Assembly: GCA_013359125.1 (NCBI GenBank)
Contig: JABWCR010000013.1
Span: 1 to 64,000, forward strand
DNA from: Armatimonadota bacterium
GTDB taxonomy: Bacteria; Armatimonadota; Fimbriimonadia; Fimbriimonadales; GBS-DC
Direction of reading: 5' to 3'
Length of the DNA stretch: 64,000 nt
The notes under the pieces are model-generated. The model ran no database searches. It was given only the letters and a program-made list of their open reading frames with translations, and was not told where the DNA came from. The first letter of the stretch is position 1. Each line of letters begins with the position of its first letter. A program made the position numbers and the translations under genes. Of this stretch, positions 21,824-24,881 are shown piece by piece.

Positions 21824-24352
21824 ATGCTCGATTCAGCCACCAAACGACGCATCGATACCGCCAGAGACACCCTGGTCGGCAAAGTGCCCGACCCCAAATC
21901 GCAGGTCGAACAGATCACCATCGCGCTCATCTACAAGTTCATGGACGACATGGACGCCCAGGCCGAAGAGCTGGGCGGCAAGCGCAAATTCTTTGCCGGC
22001 GATTTCGAGCGCTACGGCTGGGCCAAACTGATGCGCTCGGGGCTGGGCGGCCACGAGACCCTCAACCTCTATGCCGAGGCCATCGCCAAGATGCCCGAAA
22101 ACCCGGGCATCCCACCCCTCTTCCGCGACATCTTCAAAAACGCCTACCTCCCCTATCGCGATCCAGAAACCCTGCGCGGCTTTCTCAAAATCATCGACGA
22201 GTTCGAGTACGACCACTCCGAGCGCTTGGGCGACGCGTTCGAATATCTGCTCTCCGTCCTCGGCTCGCAAGGCGACGCCGGGCAGTTCCGCACCCCGCGC
22301 CACATCATCGACTTCATCGTCGCCATCGTCGATCCCAAAAAGCACGAAACCGTGCTCGACCCCGCCTGCGGCACCGCCGGGTTCCTCATCTCCGCCTACA
22401 AGCACATCCTGAAGAACAATTCCAAATTACTAACTACAAATGACGAATTAAAATCCGTAACTCCTAATTCGCAATTCGTAATTAATCTCACCCCCGACGA
22501 GCGCAAAAAACTCGCCGACAACTTCCGCGGCTACGACATCTCCCCCGACATGGTCCGCCTGTCCCTCGTGAACATGTACCTGCACGGCTTCACCGACCCG
22601 CACGTCTTCGAGTACGACACGCTCACCAGCCAGGACCGCTGGAACGAGATGGCCGATGTCATCCTCGCCAACCCGCCGTTCATGAGCCCCAAGGGCGGCA
22701 TCAAGCCGCACAACCGCTTCTCCGTCCCCTGCAAGCGCTGCGAAGTGCTCTTCGTGGACTACATGGCCGAGCACCTCACCCCCGGCGGCCGTGCGGGCAT
22801 CATCGTCCACGAGGGGATCATCTTCCGAAGCCAGACGGCGTACAAAGCCTTGCGGAAGATGCTCGTTGAGCAATACCTGGTGGCCGTCATCTCCCTGCCC
22901 GCCGGCGTGTTCAATCCCTACGCCGGCGTGAAGACCTCCATCCTCATCCTCGACAAGTCGCTGGCCAAACAGTCCGACACCGTCGGCTTCTTCAAGGTGG
23001 AAAACGACGGCTTCAACCTCGGCGCCCAGCGCCGACCCATCGACAAGAACGACCTGCCGCAGGTGCTGGCGGAGATCAACGAATACCTGCGGCGACTGCG
23101 GGCGCAGGAATCGGTCTTACCCCCTCTCCCCCTGGGAGAGGGCCGGGGTGAGGGTTCTTTCACGCCGACGCGCGGGCTGATCGTCGCGAAGGAGAAGATC
23201 GCGGCAAATGGGGATTACAACCTGAGCGGTGAACGTTACCGAGGCAACGTTGCCCGCGCGTCCGTCTTTCCTTACGTCACGTTGGAAGCGGTCGCGGATA
23301 TCGACTGGGGGAATACCGATTTGACCAAGGACGCGTATGTCGCGGATGGACGATATTTAGCGGTGTCAGCTGCCGGAGGCGACGGGAGGATTGGCCACGC
23401 CGAGCATCGTCTGGGGACCCTTGTACTATCTGCGATCGGCGCAAACTGTGGTCGAATGTTCTTTCCAGAGGAAGACTTCACGGCCATCAAGAACACGATC
23501 ACGATCACCTCGCGACCGGGAGTCATCGAACCGCTTTACCTGTATCACCTTCTCTCGATGTCGTCTCTTCCGAAACGGGGCGGAGGCCAGCCCTTCATCT
23601 CGAAAGGCGACGTACTGGCATTCGAAATCCCCCTTCCGCCGTTGGAGGTGCAGAAGGAGATCGTGGCGGAGATCGAGGCCTACCAGAAGGTGATCGACGG
23701 CGCCCGCGCCGTCCTCGACCACTACCGCCCCCACATCCCCATCAACCCCGACTGGCCGATGGTGGAGTTAGGGGAACTCTGCGAACTCGCGCGAGGTGTC
23801 ACGTACTCGAAAGGGGATGAAGTCAACGACAACGGCCACAAGATTCTGCGCGCAAACAACATCAACAACGCGCACAACACGCTTGATCTCTCGGATATCA
23901 AACTGATCTCGCCCACCCTCTCGCTGTCCGAGGACAAGCGACTGCGGCGTGGTGACATCTTCATCTGTTTGGCGAGCGGCAGCAAGGACCACATCGGTAA
24001 GGTGGCCTACATCGATGCGGACACAGACTTCTACTTCGGCGGATTTATGGGTGCGGTGCGTGCGAACTCCGAGCGAGTGTTGCCGCGATTTCTCTTCCAC
24101 AGCTTGACCGCCGACCGATTCAATTCCTTCTTGCGCCTTCGGATCGCTGGCGCCAACATCAACAACTTGAACGGGAAGATACTTGGGCAATACGCCATCC
24201 CCCTCCCGCCCCTGTCCGAGCAGGAGAAGATCGTGTCGGAGATCGAAGCCGAGCAGCGGCTGGTGGAGGGGAACCGGCAGCTCATCGAGCGGATGGAGCA
24301 AAAGATCGCCGCCACCCTCGCCCGCATCTGGGGGGAGGGAATTACGAATTAA
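21824..24352 (+). CDS. Fused type I modification-specificity protein HsdM-HsdS
   Basis: 842 residues. HsdM part: N-terminal helical domain (about 10-150), SAM motif DPACGTAGFLIS (179-190) and catalytic NPPF (283-286), to about 430. HsdS part: TRD1 (482-605) and TRD2 (647-790), each followed by a coiled coil (IPLPPLEVQKEIVAEIEAYQ and IPLPPLSEQEKIVSEIEAEQ). It methylates adenine at the site read by the two TRDs. Two foreign in-frame inserts are visible: residues 198-221 and 431-446. The stop TAA is formed by an inverted-repeat end at 24338-24350. No separate hsdS is present. SD: AAGGAG. Confidence 0.9.
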   Translation: MLDSATKRRIDTARDTLVGKVPDPKSQVEQITIALIYKFMDDMDAQAEELGGKRKFFAGDFERYGWAKLMRSGLGGHETLNLYAEAIAKMPENPGIPPLFRDIFKNAYLPYRDPETLRGFLKIIDEFEYDHSERLGDAFEYLLSVLGSQGDAGQFRTPRHIIDFIVAIVDPKKHETVLDPACGTAGFLISAYKHILKNNSKLLTTNDELKSVTPNSQFVINLTPDERKKLADNFRGYDISPDMVRLSLVNMYLHGFTDPHVFEYDTLTSQDRWNEMADVILANPPFMSPKGGIKPHNRFSVPCKRCEVLFVDYMAEHLTPGGRAGIIVHEGIIFRSQTAYKALRKMLVEQYLVAVISLPAGVFNPYAGVKTSILILDKSLAKQSDTVGFFKVENDGFNLGAQRRPIDKNDLPQVLAEINEYLRRLRAQESVLPPLPLGEGRGEGSFTPTRGLIVAKEKIAANGDYNLSGERYRGNVARASVFPYVTLEAVADIDWGNTDLTKDAYVADGRYLAVSAAGGDGRIGHAEHRLGTLVLSAIGANCGRMFFPEEDFTAIKNTITITSRPGVIEPLYLYHLLSMSSLPKRGGGQPFISKGDVLAFEIPLPPLEVQKEIVAEIEAYQKVIDGARAVLDHYRPHIPINPDWPMVELGELCELARGVTYSKGDEVNDNGHKILRANNINNAHNTLDLSDIKLISPTLSLSEDKRLRRGDIFICLASGSKDHIGKVAYIDADTDFYFGGFMGAVRANSERVLPRFLFHSLTADRFNSFLRLRIAGANINNLNGKILGQYAIPLPPLSEQEKIVSEIEAEQRLVEGNRQLIERMEQKIAATLARIWGEGITN
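22418..22488. repeat. AATTCGTAATT-type mini-element inserted in frame within hsdM
   Basis: An AT-rich stretch in an otherwise GC-rich gene, encoding NSKLLTTNDELKSVTPNSQF between the SAM motif and the NPPF motif. The left half reads aattactaactacaaatgac and the right half cctaattcgcaattcgtaat, that is, related arms in inverted orientation. The right end shares AATTCGTAATT with the ends of the four-helix-bundle cassette at 24338-24745. It looks like an empty version of the same element, tolerated because the frame is kept. Confidence 0.65.
23119..23155. repeat. LPLGEGRGEG-type palindromic repeat inserted in hsdMS
   Basis: The sequence cccctctccccctgggagag followed by ggccggggtgaggg encodes PPLPLGEGRGEG. 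This is a recognisable dispersed GC-rich intergenic repeat seen in many unrelated bacterial genomes. Here it sits in frame at the junction between the HsdM and HsdS parts (residues 433-444), a place where a linker can be lengthened without harm. Confidence 0.7.
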
Positions 24353-24745
24353 GAATTAATAATTAAGAATTGATGAGGGGTGGGCTGATGGCGGAGAATG
24401 TTGTTCAGGTTAAGAGCTTTGCGTTTGCGGCGCGCATTGTTCGGCTGTGTCAGTTCTTGGCGAACGAGAAACGCGAGTACGTTTTATCCAAGCAACTTCT
24501 CCGATGTGGATCAAGCGTCGGGGCGAACGTTGAAGAGGCGATAGGCGGACAATCCCGCCCGGATTTTCTCTCGAAGCTTTCCATCGCCTACAAGGAGGCG
24601 CGAGAAGCCCTGTACTGGCTCCGTCTCCTAAAAGAGACCGACTATCTGACCGAACCCCAATTCGATAGCATCTATGCCGATGGCGAAGAACTTTGCCGCA
24701 TCATCACCGCAATCAAAAAGACAACCGCCGCCAATTCGTAATTCC
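24338..24745. mobile_element. Four-helix-bundle gene cassette with 13-bp inverted ends
   Basis: GGAATTACGAATT at 24338-24350 and its exact complement AATTCGTAATTCC at 24733-24745 bracket a single gene of the 23S intervening-sequence protein family. Both flanking stops derive from the ends: hsdMS ends in aat-taa and the bundle gene in tcg-taa. Extra degenerate copies (aattaagaattaataatt; aattgccaattcc) adjoin each end. No transposase is encoded, so movement would need help in trans. Confidence 0.6.
24388..24741 (+). CDS. Four-helix bundle protein (23S rRNA IVP/S23 family)
   Basis: 117 residues, four predicted amphipathic helices. The family pattern is clear: KSFAFAARIVRLCQFL, YVLSKQLLRCGSSVGANVEEAIGGQSRPDFLSKLSIAYKEAREALYWLRLL. 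Frames open earlier at TTG 24370 and ATG 24373; I prefer ATG 24388, which has GAGGGG upstream and starts where homologues do. Proteins of this family are encoded in 23S rRNA intervening sequences and as free genes in variable regions; Avd of diversity-generating retroelements shares the fold. The role is unknown. The gene fills an inverted-repeat cassette directly behind hsdMS. Confidence 0.88.
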   Translation: MAENVVQVKSFAFAARIVRLCQFLANEKREYVLSKQLLRCGSSVGANVEEAIGGQSRPDFLSKLSIAYKEAREALYWLRLLKETDYLTEPQFDSIYADGEELCRIITAIKKTTAANS

Positions 24746-24881
24746 TAATTGCCAATTCCGCCGCCCTCGCGCTCCTCTTTTGTAGCGCCCCGCCTTTGGA
24801 GTTAGGCTGGGATCGGGCTTCGAGGTCGTTAGAGACCTTATCTATTGTGGTTTTGGCCAAAAAGCGTGGCAAAATTACCAC

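Follow-up and report, generated by a model that had tools for sequence, protein, structure and literature searches.

A four-helix-bundle (IVP) gene and its inverted heptad arrays look like a tiny, previously unrecognised kind of mobile element

To our knowledge, no function has been assigned to the widespread IVP genes, which code for small four-helix-bundle proteins, and the locus described here raises the question of what such a gene has to do with the inverted repeats that enclose it at the 3' end of a type I modification/specificity gene, hsdMS. In the window (the whole stretch of 64,000 nucleotides analysed, from an Armatimonadota bacterium), a perfect 13-bp inverted repeat is formed by GGAATTACGAATT and its exact complement, with 382 nt between them, and no other perfect 13-mer inverted pair with a spacing above 30 and up to 700 nt occurs in these 64 kb. 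The two copies are in turn part of tandem 7-nt arrays that are mutually inverted (Table 1); with a lag-7 identity of at least 0.68 over 35 nt, the upstream array is alone in the whole window. The IVP gene, with alternative starts at TTG 24370 and ATG 24373, is the only gene between the arms, where no transposase is found, and its product matches the family profiles above the curated cut-off and over nearly full length (PF05635, E 7e-27; TIGR02436, E 2e-30). Its closest solved structure in the PDB is 2rld (E 6e-34), and 2gsc is also matched by the wider IVP family. The pI of the protein is near neutral, so that direct binding of nucleic acids by IVP is not self-evident. The IVP stop codon (TAA 24739-24741) lies within the downstream arm, and that of hsdMS (TAA 24350-24352) is supplied by the first heptads of the upstream arm. 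The first-pass annotation had noted the exact repeats around a single IVP-family gene, the two stop codons within them and the lack of an own transposase, and all three observations stand.

Table 1. Coordinates of the element, its host gene and related features in the window, with the IVP loci at the recurrent groES-groEL site
Feature	Position	Strand	Remark
Host gene hsdMS, fused type I modification/specificity, 842 aa	21824..24352	+	3' end abuts the element
Solo (IVP-less) heptad hairpin, same heptamer family	22418..22485	-	in frame, hsdM linker
Left copy of 13-bp inverted repeat	24338..24350	+	exact match to partner 24733-24745
Upstream arm	24338..24371	+	heptads GAATTAC GAATTAA GAATTAA TAATTAA GAATT; lag-7 periodicity
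IVP / four-helix-bundle gene	24388..24741	+	117 aa from ATG 24388; profile matches
Right copy of 13-bp inverted repeat	24733..24745	-	exact match to partner 24338-24350
Downstream arm	24733..24757	-	same heptads inverted: AATTCGT AATTCCT AATTGCC AATT
IVP loci between groES and groEL			include L015, L020, L037, L059, L064, L068, L090, L221-L230

The repeat had at first been read as a fixed terminal repeat, which is not general. AATT heptads, tried as a family-wide signature, are almost absent around 30 other IVP genes, and inspection of the flanks showed that each locus has its own tandem heptamer, different even among copies in one genome; a search for the window repeat alone therefore misses the family. 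The period is the recurring feature. IVP genes are present in 142 of 291 genomes of the phylum, and at least 585 IVP relatives were confirmed in a scan of 84,980 species. Across 90 IVP loci of the phylum and the window (350-nt flanks, lag-7 identity of at least 0.75), periodicity at lag 7 was detected in 38% of the flanks upstream and in 42% of those downstream, against 1-2% of flanks 850-1200 nt away. Lag 14 echoed lag 7 and other lags reached 0-9%; most of the periodic flanks had their best lag at 7 or 14, and some at 8-10. When the upstream flank was compared with the reverse-complemented downstream flank, complementary arms were found in 72 of 88 phylum loci at a threshold above the 99th percentile of mismatched loci, with the distal control at noise, and arms were undetectable in about 18% of the loci, through decay or a different history. 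The window element itself scores 13.5, at the edge of the statistical threshold applied to the locus set, and is counted as a member because its 13-mer is exact, because of its period, and because the IVPs most closely related to its own have matching arms.

The same arrangement is present well beyond the phylum. A wider set of 80 IVP loci, drawn from a broad range of other phyla and with one archaeal contig among them, had lag 7 in 44-47% of flanks (controls, 4-9%) and an inverted match in 52 of 79 loci. The median outer length of the elements is 501 nt and that of the matched arms 33 nt. As controls from the window's phylum, groES genes without IVP had heptad arrays in none of 54 flanks, and Y1 transposase genes in one of 40, with REP-like palindromes instead. 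Rfam gave no match in the window locus or in 40 IVP loci from other phyla, and no IVP match was found among phage records. One IVP gene without detectable heptad arms (L259) is enclosed by the two copies of a perfect 23-bp direct repeat (1412-1434 and 1872-1894, about 460 nt apart).

The arm heptamer is locus-specific yet covaries with the IVP subfamily. Among pairs from different genomes without homologous flanks, the proportion of 5-mers shared by the arms rises from about 0.04 to 0.25 once IVP identity passes 0.6, and none of 1000 permutations reached the observed difference. In particular, IVPs resembling that of the window (51-63% identical) all have GAATT/GAGTT/GATTA-type heptads (9 of 9, representing about six independent sites as some share a site, compared with 24 of 154; Fisher 2e-7). 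The earlier expectation of finding the window repeat around other family members thus holds in the sense that related IVPs carry related repeats. The IVP tree is consistent with this match, as L021, L036 and L054 are all GGGTGTT-like at unrelated sites, but it serves as an illustration only, given its few columns and the very long branch of the window row.

In relatives of the window element, arms and gene come and go together as one unit, also at junctions between genes of one operon. In cyanobacterial plasmid pairs with flanks 92-95% identical, whole arm-IVP-arm inserts of 425-503 nt are present or absent. The 503-nt insert of Nostoc pNsp_c, composed of a GGGAAAA-type array, IVP and the inverted array, sits precisely where the stop and start codons of two operon genes overlap (TAATG) and has ATG at both ends, and pC052_B represents the empty junction; in the same operon, the adjacent junction of pNsp_a holds a 425-nt IVP element with GTCAGGA-type arms that is absent from pC052_A. 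Between nrdB and nrdA, a 494-nt GGGAGTA-armed element is present in Nostoc edaphicum and missing from a Calothrix plasmid (85% flank identity). The ATG at both ends in L375 may be a 3-bp target-site duplication, the other pairs being too diverged, and no clear duplication beyond these possible 3 bp was found in the empty-site pairs. In the Calothrix NIES-22 twin plasmids the IVP gene lies within a larger duplicated segment; at the cas6-cas4 site of Anabaena 90 the relative without IVP carries a different 273-nt insert and is not a clean empty site; and the loci of G028-G030 have no shared empty site. Movement as a discrete unit with defined ends is seen in these relatives, that is, outside the window copy. 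The one-gene cassette first proposed is borne out to the extent that gene and repeats form one unit in relatives, its ends being locus-specific heptad arrays.

For the window copy, a comparison of hsdMS loci with and without the gene had been suggested. Eight hsdMS homologs without IVP have C-terminal ends near the same ...VWGE position, and no close relative with an empty site was found, so that insertion at this locus is deduced from the relatives and from the hsdMS homologs. The host gene also contains an IVP-less hairpin, made of an array followed directly by its inverse, with a minus-strand fold of -23.5 kcal/mol (z -4.9). In the 2.8-Mb genome, the pattern AATT(N3AATT)x2 is found in the IVP flanks, in this hairpin (22466-22483) and on contig C5 within a CRISPR spacer, and nowhere else. 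The linker of the homologous hsdM of G056 (L101) carries an in-frame hairpin too, built of other short repeats, and a linker hairpin is absent from the remaining hsdM homologs compared. The CRISPR spacer, of about 34 nt (L002, about 161-194), is built of window-type heptads, with 18 nt identical to the window upstream arm, and separates a degenerate terminal repeat from the first regular one, with a period of 63 versus 61. The CRISPR system of the window genome may at some time have sampled an element of this kind.

Hairpins made of arms alone and sharing the heptamer were also seen in relatives. In the Nostoc plasmids, an IVP-less heptad hairpin lies upstream of the element-carrying operon in pC052_A and is missing from pNsp_c (97.7%-identical flanks), and at a single intergenic site upstream of the operon, related Nostoc plasmids (L383, L384, L385) have heptad hairpins that are nested and differ in their loops. 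The two cyanobacterial genomes searched hold many one-sided heptad arrays with no IVP, which makes heptad DNA broader than, and not exclusive to, the IVP element.

Collectively, these data suggest that the IVP gene and its inverted heptad arrays probably form one small mobile element of about 0.4-0.55 kb. An IVP oligomer would recognise its own heptamer and hold or protect the ends of the element, and cutting and joining would be left to a host or trans-acting enzyme. By inserting at stop/start junctions and bringing stop codons in its arm, the element would lessen the damage. In the window, such an element would have landed at the 3' end of hsdMS, with an IVP-less hairpin of the same heptads in frame inside hsdM. 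The repeats alone do not explain movement, contrary to the mechanism of spread that the first-pass annotation saw in them, and no mobilising enzyme was identified either inside the element or in RVT_1 and Y1_Tnp, which were checked as partners.

The arms might instead be the target, with heptad hairpins arising alone by slippage or template switching and IVP genes inserting into them. This is unlikely: solo hairpins and one-sided arrays do occur without IVP, and hairpin helices of 23S rRNA are known to house IVSs (PMC4990558), but the closest empty sites lack both arms and gene, as do the groES-groEL spacers without IVP. Moreover, related IVPs at unrelated sites in other families share a heptamer, which fits insertion into pre-existing arms only if IVP picks its target heptamer.

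A little less probable still is an element acting at the RNA level, in which the arms pair as a stem cut by RNase III and the cassette is trimmed from operon mRNAs, in the manner of the 23S rRNA IVSs. RNase III excises the Coxiella IVS at its heptamers (PMC4990558), many cassettes lie between operon genes such as groES-groEL and cas6-cas4, and the RNA of one strand of the solo hsdM hairpin folds stably. However, the RNA fold of the window cassette is no better than that of shuffled sequences (z -0.25). Mismatches between the arms on the coding strand show no excess of G.U over A.C (156 versus 202), so that the complementarity of the arms is probably not maintained through sense-RNA pairing. 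The RNase III route is less likely to maintain it than a process at the DNA level, for example recognition of the ends or template switching from one arm to the other.

Mobilisation in trans by a REP-associated tyrosine transposase (Y1_Tnp) appears very improbable. In the genomes tested (among them G000, G084, G137, G098 and G080), Y1_Tnp occurs in all 12 that carry IVP and is absent from 6 of 12 IVP-free ones, an association that may merely reflect genome size or plasticity, and its genes are flanked by palindromes, not by heptads, as in the control above. A retroelement-like mode of movement, in which a reverse transcriptase would be the partner, can be proposed on the analogy of Avd, a protein of diversity-generating retroelements that is described as a four-helix bundle related to IVP. 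It is hardly tenable, and for RVT_1-type enzymes largely refuted, since RVT_1 is absent from the window genome and from G080 and the IVP-rich G084, G137, G098 and G229.

The mobile-element reading can be set against known systems. The window element differs from insertion sequences and DNA transposons in encoding no transposase of its own, and from diversity-generating and other retroelements in that its genome has no reverse transcriptase (RVT_1). REPIN/RAYT elements and MITEs similarly have small arm-only forms alongside a gene-carrying form, but the ends of the IVP elements are heptad arrays and neither REP palindromes nor the fixed terminal repeats of a transposase. Foldback-type transposons of eukaryotes have terminal inverted repeats made of short tandem repeats, as the IVP elements do; the latter are bacterial, about 0.5 kb long and IVP-carrying, with a locus-specific unit of about 7 nt.

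The IVP elements also resemble the 23S rRNA IVSs of Coxiella and Leptospira, which contain an IVP (S23) ORF in about 0.4-0.5 kb and have terminal inverted repeats. The Coxiella IVS, which is cut by RNase III, carries three tandem heptamers adjoining the ORF and a 28-bp terminal inverted repeat; its authors list a mobile origin as one hypothesis, and how rRNA IVSs arose has been a matter of debate since 1990 (PMC4990558). The window element likewise has an IVP ORF between terminal inverted repeats. In contrast to the IVSs, it adjoins the protein-coding hsdMS and, as the lack of an Rfam match indicates, does not lie within an rRNA gene, and the heptamer of the IVP elements changes with the locus. 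The 23S rRNA IVSs look like rRNA-located relatives of the IVP elements, and would represent elements of this kind that came to lie in rRNA.

Bacteria have an unexplained over-representation of heptameric repeats (PMC4692102), and the TAACTGA repeats of Beggiatoaceae have no known mechanism of spread (PMC4679880). These repeats, the cyanobacterial STRR and the Xanthomonas GGGAATC repeats have the same 7-nt period as the IVP arms (PMC4692102, PMC4679880), and some words are partly common to both, such as GGGAATA in L200 and TCAGTTA/TCAGTTG in L148. Known heptameric simple sequence repeats are described as of unknown origin and are not connected with IVP genes in the papers retrieved, and the open-licence literature searched holds no link of heptad arrays to IVP genes outside rRNA. 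More tentatively, and with slightly less than even confidence, we propose that the IVP elements form a distinct class of bacterial mobile element, with arms of free heptad sequence that stay complementary inside each element and correspond to its own IVP, and with IVP as the end-recognition factor, and that arm-only hairpins are its non-autonomous form, with much of the unexplained heptameric repeat content of bacteria and the rRNA IVSs derived from it. IVP genes, heptameric repeats and rRNA IVSs are thereby brought together in a single element whose parts (arms, IVP, heptamer specificity) can be tested, which turns three standing questions into direct experiments.

A recurrent site is found between groES and groEL, where IVP genes with differing heptamers are present in more than 20 genomes of the order; orthologous spacers without IVP measure 18-47 nt and have no arrays. 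The site may be an insertion hot spot, or it may house an old resident IVP with turnover of its arms; these loci could have been inherited vertically, with their arms turning over, instead of arising by repeated insertion. In a second groES-groEL spacer of G108 (L136), a solo hairpin of about 11-nt repeats is present without IVP. IVP genes were also observed in type I-D CRISPR loci, where they separate cas6 from cas4, on two distant cyanobacterial plasmids, those of Anabaena 90 (L245) and Pseudanabaena galeata (L374).
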